From Sulfurimonas crateris (GTDB taxonomy: Bacteria; Campylobacterota; Campylobacteria; Campylobacterales; Sulfurimonadaceae), in NCBI RefSeq assembly GCF_005217605.1, contig NZ_SZPX01000002.1, forward strand, positions 62,001-126,000: a stretch of 64,000 nt of DNA, read 5' to 3'. The notes beneath the pieces are model-generated. The model ran no database searches. It was not told the DNA's origin and worked only from the letters and a program-made list of their open reading frames with translations. A program made the translations under genes and the position numbers. This document shows, piece by piece, positions 7,841 through 20,925 of the stretch. Each line of letters starts with the position of its first letter. The first letter of the stretch is position 1.

Positions 7841-8169
7841 TAGCTTTTTAAAAGCTTTTGTAATAACAATTCTTCAACATTTTGTCTTGAATCCAAAATT
7901 GCCATGATATAGACAGTGTCATTTCCAACTTTATATATAATTCTCCATGGTGTTGCCACTACTTCCCTATAAAAAGTGATTCCCTCTTTTTGAAGTTCAG
8001 GAACAACTCTGCCTTTTAGAGGAAAAAAGTTGCTTGAATGGGCTTTTTTTCTTATTTTTTGATATATATCATTTGCAATACTAGGACTATCTTGTTTTAT
8101 ATATGCAACAATATTTAAAAGGTCATCTTTTGCGTTTGAAGTCCATTTTAGCTTATATGTCTCACTCAT
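7840..8169 (-). CDS. RelE/ParE-family toxin (integron cassette)
   Basis: A 109-residue protein of the RelE/ParE superfamily. It starts YKLKWTSNAKDDLLNIVAYI and has a basic middle (KIRKKAHSSNF), RVVPELQKEGITFYREVV and a C-terminal strand DTVYIMAILDSRQN. The WRIIYKVGND stretch and the terminal HxxR-like region replaced by DSRQN are usual in this family. The start overlaps the antitoxin stop by 4 bp, so the two are translationally coupled. Family knowledge: ribosome-dependent mRNase or gyrase poison; which one cannot be judged here. It is the last cassette of the array, a usual place for stabilising toxin-antitoxin pairs. Confidence 0.88.
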   Translation of the reverse strand: MSETYKLKWTSNAKDDLLNIVAYIKQDSPSIANDIYQKIRKKAHSSNFFPLKGRVVPELQKEGITFYREVVATPWRIIYKVGNDTVYIMAILDSRQNVEELLLQKLLKS

Positions 8170-8438
8170 TTTTTAAGTAGTTCTTCTACAGAGTTAAATA
8201 CATCTTCTTCATTATGTGTATTTCCATTTTTAATCTCTTCTTCTGCAAAAGAAAGTAGCTTTAAAAGTGAAATGGCATTTTTCATATCCTCATAGCTTTT
8301 TGGATCTTGAATAACTGCCTTTGCTTCACCATTTTGTGTGATAATCATAGGTCTATGGGTTTCATTAATATGTTTTAGTACATCAGCTGCTCTACTTTTT
8401 AAGTAAGTAACTGGTTTTATATCGTTTATAATTTGCAT
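8166..8438 (-). CDS. Phd/YefM-family antitoxin (integron cassette)
   Basis: A 90-residue protein starting with the Phd/YefM DNA-binding fold: DIKPVTYLKSRAADVLKHIN, then RPMIITQNGEAKAVIQDPKSYED, the strand-turn that typifies the family. The C-terminal part (FAEEEIKNGNTHNEEDVFN) is the acidic tail that wraps the toxin. It precedes and overlaps the toxin gene by 4 bp. Its own promoter is probably in the 85 bp upstream, because antitoxins of this type repress their own operon. That would make the pair independent of the distant integron promoter. Confidence 0.9.
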   Translation of the reverse strand: MQIINDIKPVTYLKSRAADVLKHINETHRPMIITQNGEAKAVIQDPKSYEDMKNAISLLKLLSFAEEEIKNGNTHNEEDVFNSVEELLKK

Positions 8439-8495
8439 GACAAACTCCTTCGGTCTTTAAATGGTACCATATTAAGACTGAATTTTCAAGTGTAA

Positions 8496-8530
8496 TACTA
8501 ACAGGAGTTCAGCCAACTGATTTGCTATGC
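8496..8530 (-). other. Degenerate short attC-like site
   Basis: TACTAAC at 8496-8502 and GCTATGC at 8524-8530 flank a short AGTT/AACT stem, and GCCAACTGATTTGCTATG resembles the right half of the attC at 15087-15155. At 35 bp it is shorter than functional attC sites (usually more than 55 bp), and GCTA replaces GTTA. It separates the DUF3995 cassette from the toxin-antitoxin cassette and is probably inactive. Confidence 0.45.
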
Positions 8531-8947
8531 CTTGTATATCAATACAGCAAACATAATACCTAATATCAAACACAGTGGTGAAAAATATTTTGTATCGTAA
8601 ATTGCAAACTCTGTGTCTTTTATTTTTTTGAAAAACCCAACAGCATTGAACTCACCTATTGCTCTTAAGGTAAAAATAGTAGATAAAAATATTCCACTAT
8701 ATAAATAAAAGTTTCGATTTTCATTGATTGTAAAATCATAAAACTGCAAAGCATATGCAATATATGCAAACAGTACCAAAATAATGCCGACAAAAAATGT
8801 TAATGTTTTACTTGGATTTAATAATAGTTTTCCATCTTTAGTCGGTAAAGCTTTGTCTAATCCAATTTTTCCACCAAAAGCCCAATAAAAATGAAACAGT
8901 CCCATAATGATTAATGTAAAAATTGTAATGATTGCTATAAAATCCAT
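8525..8947 (-). CDS. DUF3995-type membrane protein (integron cassette)
   Basis: A 140-residue protein with four hydrophobic helices. The N-terminal helix runs into LFHFYWAFGGKIGLDKALPT, which is the DUF3995 signature (a GG-x-hydrophobic stretch after helix I). Helix II sits near residues 45-70, helix III includes YSGIFLSTIFTLRAIGEFNAVGFF and helix IV ends the protein. Function unknown. DUF3995 proteins are known to me as common cassette-array passengers. The start is the ATG at 8945-8947, and the stop lies inside the degenerate attC. Confidence 0.75.
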   Translation of the reverse strand: MDFIAIITIFTLIIMGLFHFYWAFGGKIGLDKALPTKDGKLLLNPSKTLTFFVGIILVLFAYIAYALQFYDFTINENRNFYLYSGIFLSTIFTLRAIGEFNAVGFFKKIKDTEFAIYDTKYFSPLCLILGIMFAVLIYKA

Positions 8948-8962
8948 CGTGTTCCTTTGTGG

Positions 8963-8995
8963 GTATAACTATTGCACTTCTCGTAATTGTTAGAT
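8963..8995 (-). other. Short attC-like site after GNAT cassette
   Basis: GTATAAC at 8963-8969 and a consensus GTTAGAT core at 8989-8995 flank only about 19 bp. The arms TAACTATT and AATTGTTA are nearly complementary. Both core sites are good, but the central stem of a normal attC is missing, so this looks like an attC with an internal deletion. Confidence 0.5.
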
Positions 8996-8999
8996 ATCT

Positions 9000-9419
9000 T
9001 CAAATTTTTTTTTGAAAGTGTAGAGCAATGACTTCATACCCTTCCTTTTTCCAGAATTTATGCGCTTGTTCATTACCGATGTAGCAATTTAACTCACTTG
9101 CAATACAGTTATTTTGTTTGGCATAGTCATAGATCCATGACATTAGTTTTGTGCCGATTTTTTGATTTTGATATTTGGGCAAGATGATTATATTGTCAGG
9201 TTCTATATGTTTGCCTACATAGTATTTTGTCAATATCCAAATACCACATATCCCAATGAGTTTATCCTCATCAAAAATGCCGATGCATCGATAGCCTTGT
9301 GTAAGCATTTCATCAAGCCGTTGTTTTAAAATATCATCGGAGATAGTGTTATTCAATATTTTAAGGAAGGGAATAATTGAATAGATTTTACTGTCTTCAA
9401 TAAATTTAAATTGCACCAT
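9000..9419 (-). CDS. GNAT-family N-acetyltransferase (integron cassette)
   Basis: A 139-residue single-domain GNAT enzyme. Acetyl-CoA motif A is visible as IEPDNIIILPKYQNQKIGTKLMSW, with the Q-x-x-K-I-G-T-K loop near residues 86-94. It is followed by ASELNCYIGNEQAHKFWKKEGYEV, the family's closing beta-alpha motif. Family knowledge: transfer of acetyl from acetyl-CoA to an amine of a small molecule or protein. The substrate is unknown; some cassette GNATs modify aminoglycosides but nothing here points to that. It is flanked by attC-like sites at 8963 and 9441. Confidence 0.85.
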   Translation of the reverse strand: MVQFKFIEDSKIYSIIPFLKILNNTISDDILKQRLDEMLTQGYRCIGIFDEDKLIGICGIWILTKYYVGKHIEPDNIIILPKYQNQKIGTKLMSWIYDYAKQNNCIASELNCYIGNEQAHKFWKKEGYEVIALHFQKKI

Positions 9420-9440
9420 TTATTGTTCTCCTCTATTAAT

Positions 9441-9495
9441 GTCTAACGGTTGACTTCACCGACAGTTCACTGTTCGGTGCTAGGTGTTGTTAGAT
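9441..9495 (-). other. attC site after restriction-modification cassette
   Basis: GTCTAAC (9441-9447) and GTTAGAT (9489-9495) are consensus core sites, 55 bp overall. The stem pairs CACCGA with TCGGTG around a short loop. The methyltransferase gene reads into this site and stops at 9467, so the last codons of the protein are attC-derived. Confidence 0.75.
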
Positions 9496-11002
9496 ATTTA
9501 GGTTGTTGTTCAAATACAAAAGAAGCTTGACCTCGTGTTTCCATCCCTGAAAACTTTAAGTATTTATTGGCAATTTCAGATTCAGCAAACTTTTTTGATA
9601 ATGAAGCCATGTTTATACGCTTTAGAATATCAACTGTAACAGGTCGTTTCGCATCAATAAATATTAAAGAGTGTAGAAATTTTTTCATCTCATCAGAATT
9701 TAAAAGCTTAGTCCAATACTTTGCTTCTTCTTCCGAATTACAGGGAATAAAATAACAAGTATCGTCTAACATTATTGGCTTATCTTGATAGGGAGGGATT
9801 GTACAAAATGTAATATTTTTATATAAGCCAGAAATACCTACCTTCCAATTAGAAAAACTGTATTTTCCAATTCCAAAAATAGAAAACAATGGTTTGTTTT
9901 TATAGATTGAACTTTTACGATTATTTAACTTAGAAATATGCTGATTTAAATATTCCCATGTTTTTGGTGCAATAGTTTCAATAATACTTGTGTCTTCACC
10001 AACTTTTCTTTGAGTCACAATAACAAATCTTCTAGGTACTAGGCGACTATTTCCAATATCTGAAGATTTTAATAATGGATAGATATAAGTATCTTCAATA
10101 TCAACAACTTCGCCAAAACCATTGACTAGTTCATCGTTTTTTAAAGTTAATTCCATAACTTTTGATGCGTCATGTTTTATACCAGAACGCCATGTGTAGC
10201 TAGAAAAACCATCTAAATATTCATATTGTTTATAATCTGTTAAGTTTGATATTAATTGTTCTTTATACATACCAAACTTGTAAAGTAATTTTTTATCACT
10301 TACTAATGATGAATAAACAGATGCATATTTGTTTTCATCTTTTGTTGAAAAGTTCACAACAAATAAGCAAGCATCTACTGAGACATTAAAATCTTTTTTT
10401 GCATTAATAAGGTAAAGATTAGCTTCGCCAATATTTATATTTTTTTTCCAAAAGTAAGTAAGGATTTTTCTAGCTGTAGCAGTTTTACATAGAAATGCTA
10501 AGTACCCTGTGCATAATTTTGTGGATTCTATTAACTCTATTATTATCCATTCTGCAATATCAAAATTAGATTTTCCAGTTTTTGCATCAAAACCTTTCAG
10601 CTTTTGAAAGTTAGATTTTTTTGGTAAGTTGTTTCCATCTAAGTTACCCATTGTTGAATTACTTACCCACGGTGGATTACCTATAATAGCTATCTCTTTA
10701 TTAGCTAAATTTTTAAAAAAAGAGTTCCAATCGAATGAAAAGAAATTTTGTGATTTTATTTTAATATTATCAGTATATGCAAATTTATTTTTTGTAAGTT
10801 CATAATATTCACTATTTATTTCAAAGCCAAAATATTTACACTTATCATTCCATTCATTGTAAGCTTCTTCTATAAAATTACCTAAACCACATGTTGGTTC
10901 AATAACAATGTTAGGTGTGGGCAATTCATTAGAAAGAAGCTGTATGACTTGTTCTGTTAATATATTTGGAGTTTGAAAATCACCAAATTCTATTTGTTTC
11001 AT
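9467..11002 (-). CDS. N6-adenine DNA methyltransferase of a type II R-M pair (integron cassette)
   Basis: A 511-residue class I methyltransferase. AdoMet motif I is IEPTCGLGNFIEEAY near residue 35, and the catalytic motif IV NPPW, which marks N6-adenine methylation, is in IAIIGNPPWVSNS near residue 110. A long C-terminal target-recognition region follows. The start is placed at ATG 11002, one base after the endonuclease stop and behind an AAAGG ribosome site; a further upstream start inside the endonuclease gene is less likely. Its C-terminal residues are encoded within the attC. Together with the preceding gene it protects host DNA by methylation. The recognition sequence is not deducible. 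Confidence 0.88.
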   Translation of the reverse strand: MKQIEFGDFQTPNILTEQVIQLLSNELPTPNIVIEPTCGLGNFIEEAYNEWNDKCKYFGFEINSEYYELTKNKFAYTDNIKIKSQNFFSFDWNSFFKNLANKEIAIIGNPPWVSNSTMGNLDGNNLPKKSNFQKLKGFDAKTGKSNFDIAEWIIIELIESTKLCTGYLAFLCKTATARKILTYFWKKNINIGEANLYLINAKKDFNVSVDACLFVVNFSTKDENKYASVYSSLVSDKKLLYKFGMYKEQLISNLTDYKQYEYLDGFSSYTWRSGIKHDASKVMELTLKNDELVNGFGEVVDIEDTYIYPLLKSSDIGNSRLVPRRFVIVTQRKVGEDTSIIETIAPKTWEYLNQHISKLNNRKSSIYKNKPLFSIFGIGKYSFSNWKVGISGLYKNITFCTIPPYQDKPIMLDDTCYFIPCNSEEEAKYWTKLLNSDEMKKFLHSLIFIDAKRPVTVDILKRINMASLSKKFAESEIANKYLKFSGMETRGQASFVFEQQPKYLTTPSTEQ

Positions 11003-11003
11003 A

Positions 11004-11660
11004 TTATAGGACCTTTTGAATTCCTGTAATTTCACCTGCTTTTTGAATTACTCTACTGTATTGTAATCGCCATTGAAGAGCATTTGAAATTGTCAAGTAA
11101 CCAATTTCAGGTGGATTTCCAATAACTTCTTCAGCTAAAGTTTGTGCTTGTATTTCATCTAAAGGTAGCATTCTTTCTCCAAAAAATGCTAAAACATCGT
11201 CAATATTGCCATCATTTTCAAGTATTTTTTTTAATCCTGTTGTGGTTTGAAAATCACCCGTTCTATAATCTTCAACATATACAGTATGGAGAATTTTTAA
11301 GCGACCTGTTTTCTCTTCTTGATTATCAGTTTTATCATATACAAAAATCAACAGGGCATAACCTAAGCCATAAATTTTTTGTCGTGCTGATTTGAAAGGA
11401 GATGAAGATTGAGGTTGCTTAATGCTTGTTACTTTCATATCAATATATAGCTCTGGGAAATCCATTCCTTTAGCTGATGACCCTTCTACATAATCATACT
11501 TTTCATGAAGAAAGGCTTGAAACTTGTGTTCAAGATATGTTCCTACTGCTTTGCCATCTGTTACACCATATAGCTCTGGGTCATTATGAATTGACTCTAC
11601 TTCTGCAAATTCTTTTGCTTCTTTTTGTAACTGCTCGATAGTTAATTTTACTTTAGACAT
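11004..11660 (-). CDS. Type II restriction endonuclease candidate (integron cassette)
   Basis: A 218-residue protein directly upstream of the methyltransferase. It contains KGMDFPELYIDMKVTSIKQP, in which D..(x8)..D-x-K fits a PD-(D/E)XK nuclease core near residues 68-80, preceded by YLEHKFQAFLHEKYDYVEG (a helix with Glu, as in that fold). Size and position are right for a type II endonuclease. The identification rests mostly on the adjacent methylase and this motif; no specific isoschizomer is recognised. The stop is at 11004, 1 bp from the methylase ATG, so expression is coupled. Confidence 0.72.
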   Translation of the reverse strand: MSKVKLTIEQLQKEAKEFAEVESIHNDPELYGVTDGKAVGTYLEHKFQAFLHEKYDYVEGSSAKGMDFPELYIDMKVTSIKQPQSSSPFKSARQKIYGLGYALLIFVYDKTDNQEEKTGRLKILHTVYVEDYRTGDFQTTTGLKKILENDGNIDDVLAFFGERMLPLDEIQAQTLAEEVIGNPPEIGYLTISNALQWRLQYSRVIQKAGEITGIQKVL

Positions 11661-11751
11661 TTTATTCCTTATTTTTTATTATATACATTTTTTCGTTAAG
11701 AGCATATATTGTTTCAATTAATATTTCTAATTGAAGTGAATTTTTTTGTAT
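11661..11751. other. AT-rich leader of the R-M cassette
   Basis: The 91 bp between the endonuclease start and the next attC are strongly AT-rich and hold no open frame of note. They could carry a private promoter for the restriction-modification pair, but no clear -35/-10 pair can be named. Confidence 0.3.
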
Positions 11752-11819
11752 ATCTAACGTTTAAATAGAGCTAATAAGTGACCATTAGGTAACTTATTAG
11801 CTCCTATGTTTTGTTATGC
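11752..11819 (-). other. attC site after DUF4160/DUF2442 cassette
   Basis: ATCTAAC (11752-11758) and GTTATGC (11813-11819) flank a strong stem in which GAGCTAATAAGT pairs with ACTTATTAGCTC, giving 68 bp in total. The DUF2442 stop codon at 11814 overlaps the right core site. Confidence 0.8.
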
Positions 11820-12050
11820 TAAGTGGCTGTCTAAGTACAAAGTGTCAGGAGATAAGTCTTGCCCATTTGCCCATTGAATAGAGTCAAAATGAGGTTTGAC
11901 TGTTTTAAAGTAAGTTTTATCTTGAAGTTGTTTAAAAAAGCCTTTATCAATATACGGCTTCATATCAAAAATTTTCTTTTCTCCATTTTCAAAAGAAAGT
12001 AAAATTTTATAATCATCTTGTGCTTTCACATCTACTATATTTGGTGTCAT
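11814..12050 (-). CDS. DUF2442 protein (integron cassette)
   Basis: A 78-residue protein, MTPNIVDVKAQDDYKILLSF onward. The pattern of a strand with a D-Y-K-I-L-L-x-F core, ENGEKKIFDMKPYIDKGFFKQL and FDSIQWANGQDLSPDTLYLD is the DUF2442 family. It follows a DUF4160 gene with 9 bp between them. Family knowledge: DUF4160 and DUF2442 are commonly encoded together and have been considered a possible toxin-antitoxin-like pair; this is not established. The stop codon lies in the attC. Confidence 0.85.
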   Translation of the reverse strand: MTPNIVDVKAQDDYKILLSFENGEKKIFDMKPYIDKGFFKQLQDKTYFKTVKPHFDSIQWANGQDLSPDTLYLDSHLA

Positions 12051-12059
12051 TTGTAACTC

Positions 12060-12329
12060 CTATTTTAAAGGCTCAATTTTAAAAATTTCTTCACCGTTGA
12101 TAGCTAATTCCCAATCAGCCATTAACTCATCTTGGTGAATTTCAATCCATGCTTCTAGAAGCTTTCTTTTACTTGTTTTCATATCTCCCTCAAGTAATTC
12201 ACCTTCTGGAATAGTAAATATCGCTTGTTCACCTTGATATTTTACATGGATATGTGGAAGCTTGTGTTTTCTGTTGTCAAAATAGTACATTGAGATGATA
12301 ATCCCATAAAACATCGAAATAATTGCCAT
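12060..12329 (-). CDS. DUF4160 protein (integron cassette)
   Basis: An 89-residue protein. The N-terminal ISMFYGIIISMYYFDN and KLPHIHVKYQGEQAIF, with the HxH pair, then GELLEGDMKTSKRKLLEAWI and a C-terminal helix with DELMADWELAINGE, are the DUF4160 consensus. It is the first gene of the two-gene cassette with DUF2442. Biochemical function is unknown. The close spacing and the recurrent pairing of the two families suggest that they act together. Confidence 0.87.
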   Translation of the reverse strand: MAIISMFYGIIISMYYFDNRKHKLPHIHVKYQGEQAIFTIPEGELLEGDMKTSKRKLLEAWIEIHQDELMADWELAINGEEIFKIEPLK

Positions 12330-12337
12330 TGTTAAAC

Positions 12338-12381
12338 CTCTAACTTATTTAGTGAATTATAACATTTTTAAATTGCTAAGT
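12338..12381 (-). other. Possible decayed attC between cassettes
   Basis: CTCTAAC at 12338-12344 and GCTAAG near 12375 are imperfect core sites with little stem between them. Some junction must exist between the DUF4160 cassette and the small-gene cassette to the right, and this is the only candidate seen. Confidence 0.3.
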
Positions 12382-12397
12382 GTAGAATTTCTGAAAA

Positions 12398-12424
12398 GTA
12401 TCTAAGCTTTAAGCTTAGATACTA
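12398..12424 (-). terminator. Hairpin terminator at the end of the small-gene cassette
   Basis: A 13-bp perfect inverted repeat (arms AGTATCTAAGCTT and its complement) with a one-base loop, followed on the minus strand by TTTT. It begins within the stop codon of the gene ending at 12422. It fits an intrinsic terminator for leftward transcription, which would weaken read-through into the distal cassettes. Confidence 0.65.
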
Positions 12425-12652
12425 TAGTTTTTTAACCAAAACTTTATCGTTCATACTATCAACTTGAATATAATAGTTTCCAAGTTCTTCAATTATTTTA
12501 GCCTTAGGCATAAACGCATAATGATAGTTATATTTATATTCAGCTTGTTGCCATTTTGAACCACTCTGCATTTCAAAGATTGTTTTCTCATCTTTAAAAC
12601 CGTTAAACTCACCTTTAATTTGTCGCAGGACAAATTCCGCCAGAACCAGCAT
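12422..12652 (-). CDS. Small conserved cassette protein (overlaps preceding gene)
   Basis: A 76-residue protein whose core IKGEFNGFKDEKTIFEM, then SKWQQAEYKYNYHYAFMPKA, belongs to a short family I know from many bacterial genomes and cassette arrays (the WxQ..Y.Y.YHYAY.P pattern); its function is unknown. The ATG at 12652 lies inside the previous gene in another frame, 38 bp before that gene's stop, and has GGAG 8 bases upstream, so overlapping translation is plausible. The alternative is a frameshift that split one longer gene, or a later start near the conserved core. Confidence 0.6.
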   Translation of the reverse strand: MLVLAEFVLRQIKGEFNGFKDEKTIFEMQSGSKWQQAEYKYNYHYAFMPKAKIIEELGNYYIQVDSMNDKVLVKKL

Positions 12653-12782
12653 TTATAACTCCACCATCACTATAATAACAAATAGTGTTGATACCATTTT
12701 GACTTTGACCAGTTAATACACCAGCATAAAGTGATATTGCTAACGCAGTAACTGCTACAATTCCAAATAATACTTTTTTCAT
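12615..12782 (-). CDS. Small secreted protein, signal peptide plus CYYSDG motif
   Basis: A 55-residue protein from the ATG at 12782, which has GGGAGGA four bases upstream. MKKVLFGIVAVTALAISLYA is a clear signal peptide; the mature part is only about 35 residues and carries two cysteines in TICYYSDGGVINAGSGGICP, which could form a disulfide. Short exported CYY..G..CP proteins occur elsewhere in cassette arrays as far as I recall, with no known role. It overlaps the next gene (12422-12652) by 38 bp. Confidence 0.7.
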   Translation of the reverse strand: MKKVLFGIVAVTALAISLYAGVLTGQSQNGINTICYYSDGGVINAGSGGICPATN

Positions 12783-12854
12783 GACTTCCTCCCATTTTGA
12801 ACTCACTATAATAAATATAGCTGTGTTCAACTTTCAGTAAAGCTTGAAAACTGA

Positions 12855-12923
12855 GCATAACGTTTGAGTTGAGAAATAAATTAACCGCAGGGTAATTTAT
12901 TTCTCTCCAATGATTTGTTATAT
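12855..12923 (-). other. attC site after four-helix membrane cassette
   Basis: GCATAAC (12855-12861) and GTTATAT (12917-12923) flank a perfect stem: GAGAAATAAATTA pairs with TAATTTATTTCTC around a CCGCAGGG loop. The same GAGAAATAA arm and CCGCAGGG loop recur in the attC at 13639-13708. Confidence 0.85.
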
Positions 12924-12929
12924 CATCTT

Positions 12930-13463
12930 CTAATGTGTTAAAAAACAATATAAATATCCTATGCTTACTACTGCTAAAACTATGGGTGTAATATAATTAA
13001 ATATAATTTCAATTATATTATAAAAAGTAAGGTGATTTTTATCAAATCTCTCTTCTAAAGCTTTTATTTTTCTTTGTATATCTTGTGCTTCATCATTTAA
13101 TGAACCTCTTGGTTCGTCATCTGAATATTGTTCTTCTCTATCATACATTTCTCCAATTTCTTCATAGGTTAAACCTATAGTATCTCCAGTTAATGTTTTC
13201 ACTTTTTTACTTATAAAGTAATCTTTGAAATATCTAACAACATTTAAACTAGCAATCGTTGAAAAATAAATAAGTAAAAATACTGTTATTGAAAATAAAA
13301 ACCAACCTAATATTTTTTCATTTTGTTCAAAATTTAAACCTATTACAGACAATTCTGTTGGTAAAACTTCTGCCAGTCCTATAAATAATGAAACTCCAGA
13401 AAAAACAAAAAGTTTAGTTTTTATTTTATTTGTATCTTCTGACAATATATTTTGATGATTCAC
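12930..13463 (-). CDS. Hypothetical membrane protein (integron cassette)
   Basis: A 177-residue protein with helices at about residues 18-38 and 52-75, a polar central part (residues 80-145, including YDREEQYSDDEPRGSLNDEA), and a last helix at about 150-173. It has no signal peptide and no recognised domain. The central charged segment should be cytoplasmic if the first two helices form a hairpin. It starts just left of the third ORF-less cassette (13494-13644) and ends at the attC at 12855. Very AT-rich codon use agrees with the neighbouring cassettes. Confidence 0.7.
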   Translation of the reverse strand: MNHQNILSEDTNKIKTKLFVFSGVSLFIGLAEVLPTELSVIGLNFEQNEKILGWFLFSITVFLLIYFSTIASLNVVRYFKDYFISKKVKTLTGDTIGLTYEEIGEMYDREEQYSDDEPRGSLNDEAQDIQRKIKALEERFDKNHLTFYNIIEIIFNYITPIVLAVVSIGYLYCFLTH

Positions 13464-13493
13464 GATAAATATGCCTTTTAATTTAAGATATAA

Positions 13494-13644
13494 CGGGGGC
13501 GCGGGTCACCGACTCCCGAATAAAAAATTTTAATTTTTTGTTTGGGTGCTCGGTGCAACCGCTTGTTATCTGGCGCTATGCGACAGATGACTAGCGGGTG
13601 TTCAGCCCGCGCCCCCGTTATCCGGTCGCGTAGCGAGCGGATAA
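13494..13644 (-). repeat. ORF-less 151-bp cassette, copy 1
   Basis: This block is base-for-base identical to 14382-14532 and 14942-15092. Its ends fall exactly at the predicted AA|C cut points of two core sites. It holds an attC-like structure (TAACGGGGGCGCGGG at one end and its exact complement ending CCCCCGTTA 1617 of the same copy's inner side, i.e. near 13606-13620), an inner stem CACCGA/TCGGTG, and a 31-bp hairpin with CGTTATCCG/CGGATAACG arms. No open frame of useful length is present. GC-rich arms contrast with the AT-rich cassette genes. Confidence 0.88.
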
Positions 13645-13708
13645 CGACTGTCTTGAGAAATAAGTTTGCCCGCAGGGTAACTTATTTCTCTCCAAGTACT
13701 TGTTAGAA
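13639..13708 (-). other. attC site after membrane-anchored cassette
   Basis: GGATAAC (13639-13645) and GTTAGAA (13702-13708) flank a stem with GAGAAATAAGTT pairing with AACTTATTTCTC around a CCCGCAGGG loop. The left core is shared with the end of the 151-bp cassette. Confidence 0.82.
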
Positions 13709-13723
13709 GTGTAGTTAAAAGCA

Positions 13724-14353
13724 TTATAAATTCAACTTTCTATTAAATAATGTAATTGATACAATTGTAAAATATCCTGCAAAAATTACAAAGAGTATGC
13801 CTCCAATAATTTTGAAAAAGGTTGGGACTCTTGAATTAATATGGTCTTCTTTCGACTTATATTGCTCATATGTATATTGTTCATTTTGAAAAAGGTTTGA
13901 ACCAGTTATTAGTATTGAATCAAAAATTGGGAGTGAAGTTAGACAATATACATATAATTTATCTTTTTTATTTATACTTTGCACATCAAATGAAATAATA
14001 CTACTGTCATAATTTTGATTTTCTTGAAATATATTAATAGGTTGTGTTTCACATTTTACAATTTCGGCTTCACCAAAATTTATTTTTACATTTAAATTTT
14101 TAGCATCATTTAGTGAATTGTTTGATATTTTCATAAAAAAAGATGATTCTATTTTTGTATTTATCTCAGGCATAAAAACATTTGAAATAGTTAAGTTTGC
14201 TGTGTCTTTTGATTTATTGGCTTTTTTTTCTATTTCTGCAATTTTTTGTTGTTCTGACTTTGTATCGTTATGAATATATAATGCTATTGCACCTGCAATA
14301 ATTGCAGCGATGATTGTTCCAATAAGTCCATATTTTGCTGATTTTTCTTCCAC
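13724..14353 (-). CDS. Hypothetical protein anchored by N- and C-terminal helices (integron cassette)
   Basis: A 209-residue protein. An N-terminal helix (YGLIGTIIAAIIAGAIALYI) is followed by a short basic/acidic coiled segment, a roughly 115-residue domain rich in beta strands and Asn (residues 50-165), and a C-terminal helix at about 180-203. The arrangement places the middle domain on one side of the membrane with both termini on the other. No family recognised. Codon use is very AT-rich. It lies between two copies of the 151-bp ORF-less cassette. Confidence 0.68.
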   Translation of the reverse strand: MEEKSAKYGLIGTIIAAIIAGAIALYIHNDTKSEQQKIAEIEKKANKSKDTANLTISNVFMPEINTKIESSFFMKISNNSLNDAKNLNVKINFGEAEIVKCETQPINIFQENQNYDSSIISFDVQSINKKDKLYVYCLTSLPIFDSILITGSNLFQNEQYTYEQYKSKEDHINSRVPTFFKIIGGILFVIFAGYFTIVSITLFNRKLNL

Positions 14354-14381
14354 TTTGTGCTTAACTCCTTTTATCTTCTAA

Positions 14382-14532
14382 CGGGGGCGCGGGTCACCGA
14401 CTCCCGAATAAAAAATTTTAATTTTTTGTTTGGGTGCTCGGTGCAACCGCTTGTTATCTGGCGCTATGCGACAGATGACTAGCGGGTGTTCAGCCCGCGC
14501 CCCCGTTATCCGGTCGCGTAGCGAGCGGATAA
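14382..14532 (-). repeat. ORF-less 151-bp cassette, copy 2
   Basis: Identical to the copies at 13494-13644 and 14942-15092 over all 151 bases. The flanks differ immediately outside (TCTAAC before, CGTTTAAAA after), so the unit moved as a discrete cassette. It holds the same internal attC-like palindrome and the CGTTATCCG/CGGATAACG hairpin. Confidence 0.88.
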
Positions 14533-14598
14533 CGTTTAAAATGAGCAATCAAAAAGCCGCTCGCGGGTTTTTGATTGGTCTCCTTTGGTTTGTTAGAC
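14527..14598 (-). other. attC site after 108-residue hypothetical cassette
   Basis: GGATAAC (14527-14533) and a perfect-consensus GTTAGAC (14592-14598) flank a stem in which CAATCAAAAA pairs with TTTTTGATTG. The CDS at 14593 ends within the right core. Confidence 0.82.
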
Positions 14599-14919
14599 AT
14601 CGTCCATATCAAACCAAGAAGCAAGTTCGTCAATGATATGTGAAATTTCTCGTTGTTCATCTACTGAAAAACTACGTGCTTTTACCATCCACGTACCTTC
14701 ACCTGAATCATCAATTACGTCATTAGTATCCATAAACTCTTTGAGTTTACGAATCCAGTTCCTAGCAGTTTCATCTAGCTGACTTTCATCAAATTGATTA
14801 AATGCAAGAGAACATTCATGAAATGCATCTACAATTGATTGTGCTTCACCTCCATAATGGGGAAGCATCAAAGCAGCACGTGCAGCAGATAGTTTTTCAG
14901 CTTGGTATGAATATCTCAT
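14593..14919 (-). CDS. Hypothetical cassette protein (KLSAARAALMLPH family)
   Basis: A 108-residue soluble protein, all-helical by pattern. The N-terminal YQAEKLSAARAALMLPHYGG, then ECSLAFNQFDESQLDE, and the end GTWMVKARSFSVDEQREISH with IIDELASWFDMDDV, match a family I recall from cassette arrays of gammaproteobacteria and Xanthomonas; its function is unknown. Codon use is less AT-rich than the neighbouring cassettes, in keeping with a separate origin. It is flanked by identical 151-bp ORF-less cassettes on both sides. Confidence 0.75.
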   Translation of the reverse strand: MRYSYQAEKLSAARAALMLPHYGGEAQSIVDAFHECSLAFNQFDESQLDETARNWIRKLKEFMDTNDVIDDSGEGTWMVKARSFSVDEQREISHIIDELASWFDMDDV

Positions 14920-14941
14920 TATTTCTCCTAGTATAGTCTAA

Positions 14942-15092
14942 CGGGGGCGCGGGTCACCGACTCCCGAATAAAAAATTTTAATTTTTTGTTTGGGTGCTCG
15001 GTGCAACCGCTTGTTATCTGGCGCTATGCGACAGATGACTAGCGGGTGTTCAGCCCGCGCCCCCGTTATCCGGTCGCGTAGCGAGCGGATAA
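14942..15092 (-). repeat. ORF-less 151-bp cassette, copy 3 (closest to attI)
   Basis: Identical to the copies at 13494-13644 and 14382-14532. It is bounded by TCTAAC on the left and GGATAAC on the right, i.e. by the core sites at which IntI would cut. It separates the PD-(D/E)XK-like cassette from the 108-residue hypothetical cassette. Confidence 0.88.
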
Positions 15093-15155
15093 CGTTTGAA
15101 ATGAGCCAATAAATTTCCCGCAGGGTAATTTATTGGCTCCACTGATTTGTTATCA
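15087..15155 (-). other. attC site after PD-(D/E)XK-like cassette
   Basis: GGATAAC (15087-15093) and GTTATCA (15149-15155) flank a stem with GAGCCAATAAAT pairing with ATTTATTGGCTC around a CCCGCAGGG loop. The CDS stop at 15153 lies in the right core. Confidence 0.82.
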
Positions 15156-15761
15156 TTTGGCTTTAAATAAAATGACTACCGAAGACCACGCATCAGTATC
15201 ATCACCAATAATTTTATTTTTACGAAAATATAATTCACAAGTCATTTTTGGATATTTTTCTTTTGTTTCTTCAAAAATTTTATAGACATTTTCTTCTACT
15301 TTTTGATTCGCATTACCTTTTTCATAATGTCTATCCATGTAAAATGCAATAAGACAAAATTGCAAAGTGAATTTTTCTAATACATCTTGTATTCTTTCAA
15401 TATCTTCTAAAATATTATTAAGTCCAAAAACAGCATTTTTTACTTCGATAATAGCTCTTGGTTTTTCGTTGCCATACCAAAGAACAATGTCACTTCGTCC
15501 ATTTGCTCTAGCTTTTTCCGAAGCTTGAGCTTTTCCTTTCAGTTGTGCAAGGTCTAATATGTACTTTACATTATCTTCTAATGTAATATATTTCGCTCCA
15601 TTAATTTTGGCTATGTTTTCTGCAATTTTTACCGTAATGAAATATTCAGGTGCATTCCATAGCCATTCCCCTCCACTCCATTCTTGATAAAATTCAAATG
15701 ATTCATCAATACCGTCTAAAGTGGATTCGATGATTGTCTCTATGGAAATTGCTCGTGACAC
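15153..15761 (-). CDS. PD-(D/E)XK nuclease-like cassette protein
   Basis: A 202-residue soluble protein. GRSDIVLWYGNEKPRAIIEV followed by KNA gives D-x(n)-E-x-K spacing typical of PD-(D/E)XK nucleases, at about residues 88-112. An upstream conserved-looking helix, SGGEWLWNAPEYFITVKIAE (residues 29-48), would supply the family's first acidic helix. Inference: a DNA- or RNA-cleaving enzyme, perhaps defensive, given the R-M cassette further along. No partner methylase is adjacent. It is the second cassette from attI, where expression from the integron promoter should be strong. Confidence 0.6.
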   Translation of the reverse strand: MSRAISIETIIESTLDGIDESFEFYQEWSGGEWLWNAPEYFITVKIAENIAKINGAKYITLEDNVKYILDLAQLKGKAQASEKARANGRSDIVLWYGNEKPRAIIEVKNAVFGLNNILEDIERIQDVLEKFTLQFCLIAFYMDRHYEKGNANQKVEENVYKIFEETKEKYPKMTCELYFRKNKIIGDDTDAWSSVVILFKAK

Positions 15762-15777
15762 TTTGTCCCCTTATGAA

Positions 15778-15911
15778 TGATAACGGTTGACTTGAGAAAT
15801 AAATGCCTTTTTAGTAGTTCTTCAAGTCTTGTAAATTTCTTTTTTAAGTATATTTCATAAGTTTAAAAAAATCGCCGAGGGCATTTATTTCTCTCCAAAG
15901 TTTTGTTAGAT
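15778..15911 (-). other. Long attC site after first cassette
   Basis: TGATAAC (15778-15784) and consensus GTTAGAT (15905-15911) flank 120 bp. The outer stem pairs GAGAAATAAATGCC with GGCATTTATTTCTC; about 70 AT-rich bases form the end loop. At 134 bp it is about twice the length of the other attC sites here. Confidence 0.8.
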
Positions 15912-15934
15912 ATTTCACTACTTAAAAGTTAAAA

Positions 15935-16747
15935 TCAAACCAATGTAGTTCCACATTCTGCACAGAATTTTGCATTTGTTTCATTCGAGGTTTCGCACTT
16001 TGGACATTTATTATGTGAAGCTTCATATAATTTAGCTTGTCTTAATGATGCAATATATATTGTTGATGGAATTGTTACTCTAAATGCTGGACCTGCAATA
16101 TCAAAAAGTGTCCAAGCAGTTGTTAAGGCTAGACCTACCGGTCCGGCAAAAGCACCTAGCCATTTTGTTGAAGTTTGATAAACAACAAAAGGAACAGTTT
16201 TGCCTAAAATTTTTGTTCCGATAATATAAATTAATTTTGTTAATAATTTATATGCAGTAAAACCTGCTTGTTTTATAGCTACTCTAGCGATAATCAAAAC
16301 TGCTTGTTTTGAAAAGTCTGTTGCTTTAGGGTTAATACCTTTTGCAAATTCTTCTAACTCTTCTGGAGTCATTTTCTCAATGGCTTCTTCTGTCATTTTT
16401 GTAACTAATGATAGTTCCATTGTGTTTAATGAAGCACCATCTGGCATATTAACTTTCATTTGTTTACATACATCTTCTAGTATTTCACTATATCCAACAC
16501 CATACCCTCTCCACATATTGGCGAATGTATTGCCTCCAAATTTTTCATAGTCATCTATAATTTCATGTACATATTTTTGATGATTTGGATAATGTTCTTT
16601 ATATTCATCTTTACTATCTAATTTTGATGTAGAACTATCTGTTAATATTTTAACCAATGGTGCTAACTCTTCATTTGTGCAATGTTCTAAGAATTTTATA
16701 CTTGAATAAAGTCCATCTTCAAAAACTATTTCTTTTTTTTCACTCAT
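15935..16747 (-). CDS. YaaW/UPF0174-like protein with C-terminal zinc ribbon (first integron cassette)
   Basis: A 270-residue protein. FLEHCTNEELAPLVKIL at the start, FGGNTFANMWRGYGVGYSEI near residue 70, and AFAGPVGLALTTAWTLFDIA with GPAFRVTIPSTIYIASLRQA towards the end align by eye with E. coli YaaW (UPF0174), whose function is unknown. Hydrophobic stretches at about 147-185 and 195-220 could be membrane-inserting. The tail CPKCETSNETNAKFCAECG is a four-Cys zinc ribbon not found in YaaW, so this is a fusion. As the attI-proximal cassette it is probably the newest or best-expressed one. Confidence 0.8.
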   Translation of the reverse strand: MSEKKEIVFEDGLYSSIKFLEHCTNEELAPLVKILTDSSTSKLDSKDEYKEHYPNHQKYVHEIIDDYEKFGGNTFANMWRGYGVGYSEILEDVCKQMKVNMPDGASLNTMELSLVTKMTEEAIEKMTPEELEEFAKGINPKATDFSKQAVLIIARVAIKQAGFTAYKLLTKLIYIIGTKILGKTVPFVVYQTSTKWLGAFAGPVGLALTTAWTLFDIAGPAFRVTIPSTIYIASLRQAKLYEASHNKCPKCETSNETNAKFCAECGTTLV

Positions 16748-16816
16748 TTCTAATCTCCAGTTATTTAATTTGTGCTGAATAAATAGTTACATTTTAAATT
16801 TTAAGTAAAATCTGTC

Positions 16817-17095
16817 ATCTAACTATTTATTGTATGAATACTTTAACATATATATACTGAATAGAAACATTATCTAATACAAAAAATATTCGAATAATAA
16901 TTTTTTATTTAAAAGTTTTCAAAAAAATATGACAAATTGTCATAAAATTAAAAATTTAGACTGAAAGTGACTATACTTTTTAAAACTTAAGAAAAACTTT
17001 TAGCAAGAAATTGTGCGTTATTTGAGCATCTTGTTAGATAATTGTTAAAAAATCCATTATTCGCACATTGTGTAAGATAATTATTGGAGACTTAT
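16817..17095. promoter_or_regulatory. attI and integrase/cassette promoter region
   Basis: These 279 bp lie between the first cassette and intI. ATCTAAC at 16817-16823 (GTTAGAT on the cassette strand) is the attI core site where cassettes enter. The rest is AT-rich, with no open frame. It must hold the leftward cassette promoter (Pc) and the rightward intI promoter. A TATACT box at about 16972-16977 could serve intI, but no convincing -35 pair is visible. A 17-bp palindrome lies at 16928-16944. Confidence 0.7.
16928..16944. promoter_or_regulatory. Perfect 17-bp palindrome, candidate operator for intI/Pc
   Basis: TATGACAAATTGTCATA is an exact palindrome with a single central base. It lies between attI and intI, about 30 bp upstream of a TATACT box. 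It is not a LexA-type CTGT-N8-ACAG box. Its length and symmetry suit a dimeric repressor; the protein is unknown. Confidence 0.4.
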
Positions 17096-18064
17096 ATGGT
17101 TGTTAAAAAGAAATTGCTTGATATTGTTAGAGATAAAATCAGATTTAAGCACTATAGTTATTCTACGGAAAAAACTTATATCGGTTGGATAAAACAGTAT
17201 ATTTTTTTTCATGATAAAAAACATCCATTAGAGATGGGCAAAATTGAGATAGAAAAGTTTTTAACATACCTTGCTGTAGAGAGAAATGTCTCTCCAACAA
17301 CTCAGAACCAAGCTTTCAGTGCGCTACTATTTTTATACAAAGAAGTCCTTGGTATGGATATGAGCAATGAAAACATTCAAGCATTAAGAGCACAGGAGAG
17401 AAAGCATATTCCGGTTGTACTTACAAAAGAAGAGGTGCAAAATATTTTAGAAAATGTGACCGGTGTTTATCAGTTGCTTGTGTCACTTATGTATGGTTGC
17501 GGACTAAGAATGAATGAAGCACTTAATTTAAGAATCAAAGATATAGATTTTGGATTTGATAAAGTATATATTTGGGACAGTAAGTCTCTTAAAGATAGAA
17601 CCGTTCCTTTACCTTTAAAATTAAAACAGAGATTATTAGCACAAGTTGATTATGTTGAGACTATTCATAAAAAAGACTTAAAAGATGGTTATGGCTCCGT
17701 ATTTTTACCATTTGCGCTAGAAAAGAAAAATCCTCAAGCCAAGCATGAAACAAAATGGCAGTTCCTGTTTCCTATGAATAATGTTTCTAAAGATCCAAGA
17801 AGTGAAACTGTAAGAAGACATCATATACATCCCGCCACTTTAGGTAGAAATATTAAAATTGCTTCTCAAAAAGCAGGTATACATAAACGAGTGACCTCTC
17901 ACATATTTAGACATAGTTATGCCACTCATTTGTTACAAGCTGGAATAGATTTACGTTCAATTCAAGAACTTTTAGGGCACAAAAGTGTTGAAACAACTAT
18001 GATATATACTCATGTAGTTTCTGAAATGAATAAGAGTAAAGTTATAAGCCCTCTGGATTTATAG
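17096..18064 (+). CDS. intI: Integron integrase (tyrosine recombinase)
   Basis: A 322-residue tyrosine recombinase. The core-binding domain starts with KHYSYSTEKTYIGWIKQYI. The catalytic domain shows the first Arg in GCGLRMNEALNLRIKDIDFG, then HIFRHSYATHLLQAGIDLRS (H-x-x-R) and TTMIYTHV (Tyr). The segment FLPFALEKKNPQAKHETKWQ followed by DPRSETVRRHHIHPATLGR is the extra helix region that separates integron integrases from other recombinases. The start is the ATG at 17096, behind GGAG; a TTG four codons upstream is unlikely. It recombines attC hairpins with attI. Its 3' end overlaps a small gene of the ileS operon on the other strand. Confidence 0.96.
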   Translation: MVVKKKLLDIVRDKIRFKHYSYSTEKTYIGWIKQYIFFHDKKHPLEMGKIEIEKFLTYLAVERNVSPTTQNQAFSALLFLYKEVLGMDMSNENIQALRAQERKHIPVVLTKEEVQNILENVTGVYQLLVSLMYGCGLRMNEALNLRIKDIDFGFDKVYIWDSKSLKDRTVPLPLKLKQRLLAQVDYVETIHKKDLKDGYGSVFLPFALEKKNPQAKHETKWQFLFPMNNVSKDPRSETVRRHHIHPATLGRNIKIASQKAGIHKRVTSHIFRHSYATHLLQAGIDLRSIQELLGHKSVETTMIYTHVVSEMNKSKVISPLDL

Positions 18065-18173
18065 ACTTCTTCCCCAGTTTGATGAGGGCTATTCCGATGC
18101 CAACCATGACAAATATCACAGCTATGGTAGCTGCAATAAATGTAAAAGTTACAGGTTCTGCAAAGTTAGGCAT
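18042..18173 (-). CDS. Small single-helix membrane protein downstream of ileS
   Basis: An unlisted short frame: 43 residues beginning [20 protein letters not shown] and continuing with a hydrophobic helix to [11 protein letters not shown]. The ATG overlaps the ileS stop (AATGCCTAA), so it should be translated by coupling. The helix and following positive residues fit an inner-membrane miniprotein with the C-terminus in the cytoplasm. The last codons run 23 bp into the 3' end of intI on the other strand, so the original C-terminus may have been altered when the integron arrived. Function unknown. Confidence 0.6.
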
Positions 18174-20925
18174 TTAAAACCTTTAAACATCTCGGGCAAG
18201 TGCTCTCTTCGTTCTGGGACTGATATTTCCAACATCTTGGGCATTTTGCTTTTGTAGCTTTTGCTATGATGAACGTATCGCCCTCTACTATGAATGTTCC
18301 AAGCTCCACAGATGTTTCGCCCTCTATAACGCCAGAGACCACGAACCAGTCTTCAGCCTCTGTTTTGTCCATTTTAAGAACACTTTGCGACTCTGTGTAG
18401 AGTACAAGTTCAAGAGTGTTTTTTATGACTTTCTCTTTTTTAAGAGCATCTACTTTTTCGTAAAAACTCTCTCTTGCAGCAAACATATAATCAACATTGA
18501 ACTCAGATTTTACGTCTTCTATGCTCTCATATACAAAATCAAAGATGTCTTCTTTGTCGCCTTTGATGATCGCAGGAGCGTTCTCTACGATCTCATCTGC
18601 CGTGTAAGTAAGTATTGGTGCGATCAGCCCAAGAAGCGACTTGACGATAATAGCCATCGCGCTCTGGCTTGCGTTTCTCTTAGCGTCATCTTTGCCATCG
18701 CAGTAGAGAGAATCTTTTGTGATGTCGATGTAAATTCCGCTTAATTCATTTACGATAAAGTTGTTAAGAAGGCTCATACCGTGAACGAAGTTATAGCCGC
18801 TAAATGATTTGTGAACCGCGTCAAATACCTCTTTTGCTTCGCCGAGTATCCACTTGTCAAGCTCGCCCATCTCTTCATAAGGAGTTATCGCTTTTAGGTC
18901 GTTTATGTTTGCAAGCATAATTCTAAAAGTGTTTCTCAGTTTACGGTAGTTCTCCGCCGTCTGTTTTAGAATGCCTTGAGATATTTTTAGGTCTCCCTGA
19001 TAGTCGCTTGAAGCAACCCAAAGACGTAAAATCTCACTTCCGTACTCTTTTAAGACCTTCTCAGGTGCGACAACGTTGCCTTTTGACTTGGACATCTTCT
19101 CACCTTTTTCATCAACAGTGAAACCGTGAGTAAGGACTCCTTTGTATGGCGCTTTATGCTCGACAGCTGCACTTAAGAACATAGATGACTGGAACCAGCC
19201 GCGGTGCTGATCGCTTCCCTCGACATAGAGGTCGGCAGGGTATTCGCCTGCATCGTAGTTGCGTGATTTCAGAACGCTATACCAAGTAGAGCCGCTGTCA
19301 AACCAGACATCTAAAATGTCAGTTACCTTTTCAAGTTCGTCCGCACAGTATCCTGCACCCGGGTAGAGCAGCTGCTCTGTCGGCATAGAGTACCACGCAT
19401 CGCTTCCGTGCATCTCAAATATCATTGCCGTAAAGTTCAAGACCTTCTCATCAAGAAGAACTTCGCCTGTCGCTTTTACTCTAAAAAACGCTATCGGAAC
19501 ACCCCAGTCTCTTTGGCGTGAGATACACCAGTCCGGACGGTTCTCGACCATTGACTTGAGTCTGTTCTTACCGCTTTGAGGGTAAAAAAGAGTCTTTTCA
19601 ACTTCATCAAGAGCGATCTCTCTGAGCGTTTTGCTCTCACCCTTTGGGGTGCCGTCTACGCTGATAAACCACTGTTTTGTAGCTCTGAAGATAAGAGGCG
19701 TGTGGCTTCTCCAGCAGTGCGGGTATGAGTGCTTAAACTTTGAGACGTGTATAACGCTGCTACCCATAAGATCAATCAGGTCTTCGTTTGCTTTGAAGAT
19801 ATGACGCCCAACAAACTCCTCTGCATTCGGGATAAGGCTGTCTCTGACAATAGTATTGTCATAGCATCCAGTCTCATCTACGGGCATAACGACTTCAAGG
19901 TCATAAACAAGACCTATGCGGTAGTCATCTTCACCGTGCCCAGGAGCCGTGTGAACACACCCTGTACCGTTTTCAACAAGAACGTGCTCCCCTAAAACTA
20001 CGCGAGAAGTTCTGCCGTTTAGAGGATTGAGTGCAAGAAGATTTTCAAACTCTTTTGCATGAAAAGTCTTAGCTACTTCGCCGCTTAAGATGCCTTGCTC
20101 TTTTAGAGACTCCAGAAGTTTTTTAGCAACGATGTAACCAGTTGTTGTTAGAACATACTCCTCCTCAGGATTGAGCGATATTCCAGTATTTGCAGGTATC
20201 GTCCATGGAGTTGTTGTCCAGATGACAAGAGCCGCTTTTGAGTCTATAGAGAGTTTTGCTTTTGCCTCAGGCTCAAGTTCAAATGCGATAAAGATCGAGT
20301 AATCCTCTTTGTCCTCATACTCTACTTCGGCTTCTGCAAGAGCGGTTCTCTCAGCCCACGACCAAAAAACAGGCTTGCTTCGCTCTATTAAAAGACCTTT
20401 TTTTGCAACATTGCAAAGTGTGCGGTAGATGTTTGCTTCAAATTTATAATCCATCGTGACATAAGGGTTTTCCCAGTCCGCGATGATGCCCAGTTTTTTA
20501 AACTCTTCTCTTTGGATATCGACAAACTCAGATGCGTGAGCACGGCAAAGTTCTCTTACTTTTGCAGCACCAAGAAGCTCTTTTTTCTGTTTGCCGCCTA
20601 CTTTTTTCTCTACCTGCTGCTCGATCGGAAGACCGTGACAATCCCAGCCCGGAGTAAAACGCACTGATCTGCCGTTAAAATAGTTATGTTTTATGATTAT
20701 ATCTTTTAAGATCTTATTGAGTGCATGACCGATGTGCGTATTGCCGTTTGCGTATGGAGGACCGTCGTGAAGAGTAAAGCTTTTAGCATCCTTGCGGTTG
20801 GCTTTCATCTTCTCGTATACTCTCTTCTCATCCCAAGAAGCGTATCTTTTTGGTTCGTTGTTGATAAGATTGCCTCTCATCTCAAATTTAGTAGTCGGTA
20901 AAAGTAGCGTATCTTTGTAATCCAT
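18166..20925 (-). CDS. ileS: Isoleucyl-tRNA synthetase
   Basis: A 919-residue class I synthetase that charges tRNA(Ile) and edits valine. The HIGH motif is [11 protein letters not shown] near residue 63, KMSKS is [10 protein letters not shown] near residue 612, and a C-terminal zinc finger reads [10 protein letters not shown]...CPRCLKV. The editing domain occupies roughly residues 190-400. The length fits the bacterial type. It is transcribed divergently from the CinA-like gene, with about 120 bp between them; no T-box-like leader is visible. A 43-residue membrane protein follows with overlapping stop and start. Confidence 0.98.

Follow-up and report, generated by a model that had tools for sequence, protein, structure and literature searches.

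A family of gene-less cassettes with a conserved, predicted self-pairing fold in the integrons of Campylobacterales

The stretch of Sulfurimonas crateris DNA analysed here (the window, 64,000 nucleotides) contains an integron in which three identical 151-bp units lie between gene cassettes. Judging from the sequences, we find that this unit is probably a gene-less integron cassette moved by the integron integrase. The features that point to this are its boundaries, the complementarity of its R' and R'' boxes, an order-wide family of relatives, identity of copies within genomes, exact presence or absence, and a fold that is conserved and favours the bottom strand. The initial annotation had proposed recent copying and re-insertion or strong selection, and copying of the ORF-less cassettes within the array is well supported by the boundaries, the box complementarity, the within-genome identity, and the presence or absence of the unit. 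Among the roles listed there, that of a mobile or selfish unit fits best.

Sequence comparison confirmed that positions 13494-13644, 14382-14532, and 14942-15092 are identical base for base, and that genes and blanks alternate in the order gene, blank, gene, blank, gene, blank, gene, as had been described. The identical run is really 156 bp rather than 151 bp, with 3 additional bases (TTA) on one side and 2 (CG) on the other, because these extra bases are those of the integrase core site. The 151-mer matches the genome three times, always within the array of the window. All three units lie on the minus strand, which is the strand of the cassette genes. Read on this strand, each is flanked by ...CG↓TT and ...CCCCCG↓TT (the arrow marks the cut point) and runs from G↓TTATCCG to CCCCCG↓TT; the claim that the units end at the integrase cut point is thereby borne out, from G↓TT to G↓TT. 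Each unit directly follows an ordinary attC (15093-15152, 14533-14595, and 13645-13705) and directly precedes the next gene cassette. The G+C content is 56% in the unit and 39% in the window. Over any of the units, the ORF list holds a single frame of at least 60 aa, a 68-aa TTG frame (14430-14636, plus strand) that extends beyond copy 2, and the longest closed ORF inside any of 68 distinct family members is 54 aa, in agreement with the earlier description as ORF-less. With no internal ORF above 70 aa, the units are ORF-less cassettes by the definition given in the accessible text of PMC11014356. The integron is laid out as follows.

17084-18064, plus strand: integron integrase (TIGR02249, 414 bits against a cut-off of 265; no internal stops)
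16814-16860, minus strand: attI region, AATAAATAG↓TT, junction at about 16822; a similar motif is found at the attI of relatives
15935-16747, minus strand: gene A, first cassette, JukA-like (E 4e-57)
15784-15908, minus strand: attC of gene A, the first cassette (from the array layout)
15153-15761, minus strand: gene B, weak match to a Tin defence model (E 6e-6)
15093-15152, minus strand: ordinary attC of gene B (from the array layout)
14942-15092, minus strand: ORF-less cassette copy 3, between the attC of gene B and gene C (identical 151-mer; covariance model)
14593-14919, minus strand: gene C (from the ORF list; no match in protein-model searches)
14533-14595, minus strand: ordinary attC of gene C (from the array layout)
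14382-14532, minus strand: ORF-less cassette copy 2, between the attC of gene C and gene D (identical 151-mer; covariance model)
13724-14353, minus strand: gene D (from the ORF list; no match in protein-model searches)
13645-13705, minus strand: ordinary attC of gene D (from the array layout)
13494-13644, minus strand: ORF-less cassette copy 1, between the attC of gene D and gene E (identical 151-mer; covariance model, 167.7 bits)
12930-13463, minus strand: gene E (from the ORF list; no match in protein-model searches)
12861-12920, minus strand: ordinary attC of gene E (from the array layout)

The cassettes between 9467 and 16747 resemble a defence collection: the JukA-like first cassette and the weakly Tin-like gene B are accompanied by a type II restriction enzyme and methyltransferase and by a DhiT/DhiA-like toxin-antitoxin pair that falls short of the curated cut-offs. 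Within the leader of the first cassette, at 16764-16800 on the plus strand, there is a second, inverted attI-like core, TGAATAAATAG↓TTACA. A promoter-plus-attI module (TATAATGT...TTGAATAAATAG↓TT, at most 2 mismatches) was observed in 108 of the order's 398 genomes, often in several copies, and 57 of the 78 attI-like sites listed (e.g. L162-L199) have no integrase match in the fetched stretch.

In a circular cassette, the attC is completed by the cassette start (R'), which is accordingly expected to be complementary to the R'' of the same cassette. The ordinary cassettes of the array display this complementarity in gene C (GTTAGAC/GTCTAAC), gene D (GTTAGAA/TTCTAAC), and gene E (GTTATAT/ATATAAC). 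The start of the unit is complementary twice, to an outer R'' that follows the start box at a distance of 13 bases and to an inner R'', GATAAC, in mid-unit. Of the 66 members compared, 60 have a start complementary to the inner R'', versus a mean of 29.8 for shuffles, none of 5000 of which reached that number; an outer R'' complementary to the start is present in 64. The unit reads as a short canonical-looking attC of 77 nt joined to a 74-nt body that is in effect an inverted copy of the two arms of that attC. In copy 3, the parts are these.

15065-15092, minus strand: hairpin P1, made of the R' box TTATCCG and the outer R'' box CGGATAAC, 13 bases apart (from the fold)
15019-15092, minus strand: body, 74 nt, with segments that pair with both arms of the inner attC (from folds)
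14942-15018, minus strand: inner attC, with R'' GATAAC, spacer, L stem with unpaired bases, AT-rich terminal stem, spacer, and R' G↓TT

The whole unit is predicted to fold into a three-way junction plus a hairpin. In this fold, the body pairs with the R' side and its spacer (P2) and with the inner R'' and its spacer (P3), the L stem of the attC itself forms the third arm (P4), and the cassette start pairs with the outer R'' (P1). The unpaired central spacer of a canonical attC is absent from the minimum-energy fold of the whole unit, in which the arms are paired with the body. The inner 77 nt are predicted to form R''-spacer-L''...L'-spacer-R' with an unpaired base on the R''-L'' arm, as in a canonical attC; consensus columns 60 and 62 are unpaired, and four spacer bases are paired in this predicted inner fold, whose layout was judged by eye against the ordinary attCs of the same array. 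In 59 of 64 members, the body pairs with 70% or more of each attC arm, and the junction is favoured over the inner attC plus body in all 64 members tested, by a median of 16.8 kcal/mol (range 5.7-28.8). The inner attC, the pairing of the body with its arms, and the family go beyond the initial annotation, which had described a GC-rich palindrome and a terminal hairpin with CGTTATCCG arms. Both of these are present, but the hairpin is not a separate terminal feature: it is formed by the R' box of the cassette itself and the neighbouring outer R'' box.

The fold is stronger on the bottom strand. For 14379-14535, the plus (bottom) strand folds at -61.4 kcal/mol (z -13.8) and the minus strand at -48.5 kcal/mol (z -8.7), and 0 of 200 shuffles fold as well on either strand. 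The bottom strand folds better in each of 81 distinct members, by a median of 9.5 kcal/mol, and the consensus fold is -91.4 kcal/mol on the bottom strand versus -55.7 on the top. Ordinary attCs show the same tendency: their bottom strand folds better in 42 of 56, with one tie and a median difference of 1.1 kcal/mol. By these predicted energies, the better bottom-strand fold would be as expected for a site recombined through its folded bottom strand, and it is the bottom strand of attC that recombines according to the text seen of PMC2727003.

The RNAalifold consensus places P2 as the helix closing a junction with arms P4 and P3, plus P1, and two-sided changes are seen in 28 of its 61 pairs. 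Five covariation measures exceed those of all 500 shuffles, which keep the relatedness of these related members, and those of all slid versions; sliding the pairing partners destroys the covariation signal. The junction sequence GTTCA is invariant in 17 of 17 aligned members. Among the non-Watson-Crick cells of the bottom strand, we count 267 G-T versus 14 A-C in 61 distinct rows of the model-fitted alignment and 75 versus 5 in the unfitted alignment, a count that leans to the bottom strand because the pairs were defined by the bottom-strand fold. When the top-strand fold defines them instead, the count is 14 versus 5, which points the same way but weakly (P about 0.06). Split by helix, G-T to A-C is 1:1 in P1, 41:2 in P2, 111:5 in P3, and 114:6 in P4, and P1 across the family has 479 Watson-Crick, 1 G-T, and 1 A-C among 481 cells. 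From these helix-wise counts, P2-P4 therefore appear to be maintained for the bottom strand and P1 on both strands.

With BLAST, 27 of 99 related genomes, that of the window among them, gave a match; the weakest matches are short and AT-rich and were read as chance. A covariance model built from an alignment of 17 distinct full-length members, whose lengths are mostly 149-158 bp, then recovered family members from 34 of the order's 398 genomes, again counting that of the window (three, G237, G275, and G295, with weak matches only), and from 14 of 87 genera, so that the search of Campylobacterota proposed at the outset did yield relatives. In one genome each of 84,980 species, a conserved-core pattern, which is exact and misses diverged members, matched 39 stretches. 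Campylobacterota names attach to 35 of these (Sulfurimonas, Sulfurovum, Nitratifractor, Helicobacteraceae, Campylobacteraceae, and the like), and the other 4 lie in three odd bins, namely Gracilibacteria (L053), Peptostreptococcaceae (L055, L078), and Moraniibacteriota (L074). From their Campylobacterota-type attCs, we judged these contigs to be probably misbinned. Plasmid and phage collections gave no match at E 0.01, and viral contigs no exact match to two patterns. We also observed further blank types of 174-189 bp with weak model matches and a different sequence laid out on the same plan of start hairpin, outer palindrome, and inner arms (L114:12076-12258, L038:5274-5453, L111:2001-2187, L121, L127:8498-8689, and L128:6799-6977). 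In L081:14-126, a near-perfect inverted copy of the body takes the place of the attC half, and the resulting palindrome is about 82 nt long; a recurrent odd attC-like end, GGTAACATATTTTTGTACTC(A/G)ACCG, precedes blanks in the upstream flanks of L029:8122, L043:3842, and L114:12076.

Identical copies within a genome account for 3 of 3 units here, 9 of 13 in G409, 2 of 5 in G010 (about 1.1 Mb apart), and 3 of 3 in one MAG; G026, G029, G182, and others have differing copies only. G409 and G010 are single-contig relatives, so that the repetition of copies is no peculiarity of the present assembly. The best unit seen in another genome (G386) is 97% identical to that of the window. A script sorted 107 distinct contexts of the family into 57 at attC (two of them degenerate copies, L047 and L129), 35 at attI, 2 cut off, and 13 other; by eye, these 13 comprise 8 that are attC-like or the end of another blank, 2 at attI, and 3 unassigned. 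Many copies at non-integron loci with target duplications, the case that the initial annotation had set against its own reading, were not found among these contexts. Additionally, among the matches listed, gene cassettes that are 76-88% identical occur with and without the blank and switch exactly at G↓TT (L028 vs L051 and L117; L114:10447 vs L023; L117:9691 vs L221; L023:6430 vs L046; L113:3544 vs L033), evidence that comes from genomes of relatives rather than the window's own neighbours. Gene B has distant homologues (69-71%) in G477 and G171 among the matches listed, and genes C, D, and E have none there; in L220 and L208, sought as empty sites for the window's genes, no attC was recognised.

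An integron integrase was found in 18 of the 34 genomes with the unit vs 52 of 364 without it (Fisher P 8e-7), where family members are related and the counts are not independent events. The remaining 16 unit-bearing genomes have no integron integrase at E 1e-60, and a search of 10 of these with the window's own integrase gave no full match. One of the relatives, G409 (one contig; loci L112-L114), has 12 type-A copies, 9 of them identical, with partial integrase matches only, at E 1e-12 or weaker; recent integrase loss, gene conversion, or another enzyme could account for its copies. In G064, a stop-ridden integrase fragment lies on the contig of its unit (C68), as if the integrase had been lost. 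Two further ideas about the placement of the unit were not upheld. A preference for the first position was suggested by 37 of 107 contexts at attI, but these loci were chosen for holding blanks, and a blank follows 1 of the 55 attI-like sites listed from L132 on, a count that leaves out sites already present in earlier loci (e.g. L144, which coincides with a site of L121). Capture of a gene by insertion into a blank was considered for L036, where a deletion appears to have joined the start of a blank to a gene cassette.

Retention of the unit as a promoter that drives the gene cassette behind it is, in our assessment, unlikely. Promoter action has reportedly been shown for ORF-less Treponema cassettes. 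The flanks shown here keep one orientation relative to attC or attI, and in five arrays a type-A unit never follows a type-A unit (0 observed versus 5.06 expected by shuffling, P 0.0008, with array orders hand-coded and short forms counted as units). This lack of type-A neighbours may reflect selection or the loss of tandem repeats by deletion between them. Most of 29 Vibrio gene-less cassettes have sense-strand promoter activity as reported in the portion of PMC11014356 consulted. In the present family, a TATAAT with one mismatch occurs in 32 of 72 distinct units, but an exact one in 0 of 72, versus 22 of 34 attI upstream regions; of the promoter role suggested initially, a conserved promoter is thus not seen and a weaker one is possible. 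The -35/-10 score of the units is no higher than that of shuffled units, although this score also failed in its positive control and so carries no weight here. The AT-rich arm able to hold a -10 is among the least conserved parts, and the conserved fold is better on the opposite strand. Between 11.7 and 17.2 kb, there are 2 terminator-like sites (2.4 in shuffles), none inside a unit. The small RNA suggested earlier is disfavoured as a sense-strand product because the opposite strand folds better. A structured small RNA transcribed antisense to the cassette genes, for which the three-way junction would be maintained, accords with a G-U-tolerant structure on that strand, strong covariation, and invariant junction bases; we consider it improbable, as the same strand is also favoured by ordinary attCs (42 of 56) and P1 has 1 wobble in 481 cells versus 111 in 1098 for P3, so that P1 seems to be kept on both strands, as a DNA box would be. 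Within 8000-18500, every Rfam family stayed below its cut-off, and the sole match at E<1 was a miRNA model with 20 bits.

REP/REPIN and PATE hairpins are short palindromic repeats spread in genomes, and the unit, also a short palindromic repeat, differs from them in that its site is attI or attC in all but a few contexts. A non-autonomous transposable hairpin of the REP or PATE kind, moved by a transposase and targeting the integron core site, could account for a small palindromic unit with identical copies that also occurs in genomes without a found integrase. We hold it to be very improbable, given that, with few exceptions, the 107 contexts have the unit inserted at the integrase cut point (three contexts stay unassigned by eye, and two degenerate copies were sorted to attC by the script) and that the start is complementary to the unit's own R'', as in cassette circles. 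Equally slight is the chance that the units are remnants of gene cassettes minus their genes, kept alike by gene conversion. Decayed and fused forms do exist (L036, L041), but the narrow lengths of the 17 distinct members, the compensatory changes across genomes, and the exact presence or absence of the unit argue against it.

For a gene-less cassette moved by the integron integrase, the enzyme would excise and re-insert the unit, and the copies would multiply because excision would act on one strand only, the unit persisting mainly as a mobile passenger. On a single bottom strand, the body would pair both attC arms to give a three-way junction without an unpaired central spacer; this junction would be at rest or recombine little, and the inner attC would be the active form. 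In the large attC of Vibrio cholerae, VCR, pairing the spacer lowers recombination 27-fold, and 8.5e4-fold when the extrahelical bases are also deleted (PMC2727003, as far as its text was available). As the spacers are largely paired in the junction, these losses in VCR lead us to infer that the junction would be a poor integrase substrate. It is possible, as a tentative proposal that goes further than cassette mobility, that the unit acts as a bistable device of single-stranded DNA and brings its own lock: in one fold, the body would bury both attC arms in duplex and leave the integrase without a proper site, and the other fold would yield the canonical attC. The longer types that share its plan (L038, L111, L114, L121, L127, L128) are expected if the plan itself is selected. 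The main puzzle for the lock is posed by short versions of 52-83 bp (L117, L025, L023:10297, L042) that keep P1 and the palindrome without the inner attC and are nevertheless flanked by intact boundaries; the inner attC may not be the sole site used, or these may be internal deletions. If true, the lock would set the recombination rate of the unit and of any adjoining junction, and the unit would then be a parasite that regulates itself or an element that stabilises cassette arrays.

Integron cassettes without an ORF are already known, and it is the conserved self-pairing folded architecture that appears new as far as our searches go: open-licence literature on gene-less integron cassettes and attC, covered by titles and the starts of abstracts, gave no report of such a conserved folded family. 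Like the ORF-less cassettes of Vibrio and Treponema, the unit is an attC without a gene that occurs several times per array. In Vibrio sp. DAT722, ORF-less cassettes occupy 25 of 116 positions, and some cassettes of that array are multiple (PMC2945992, in the sections available). The Vibrio and Treponema cassettes were studied as promoters (those of Vibrio in PMC11014356), and no conserved folded body is described for them in the text covered, whereas here one plan extends across the order with compensatory changes and a body that pairs with its own attC. The inner part of the unit shares with the ordinary attCs of its array the layout xxxAACAA, spacer, L stem, and R' G↓TT, and its bottom strand likewise tends to fold better; unlike those attCs, it has both spacers paired with the body in the predicted fold. 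The unit is long, as is VCR with its branched 65-nt terminal structure; in VCR, the central spacer stays unpaired and three bases near the R box are extrahelical, and the predicted P2 of the unit lacks both features (those of VCR from PMC2727003).

Gene-less cassettes have so far been interpreted as promoters or other regulatory elements. In this family, a single design without a gene and with a better bottom-strand fold appears to be conserved by compensatory change across a bacterial order. The family amounts to a natural series of attCs whose key parts, the spacer and the extrahelical bases, can be masked by a built-in partner, and the control that folding exerts on cassette movement is therefore directly testable. 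It would also show that integrons carry minimal passengers of their own.
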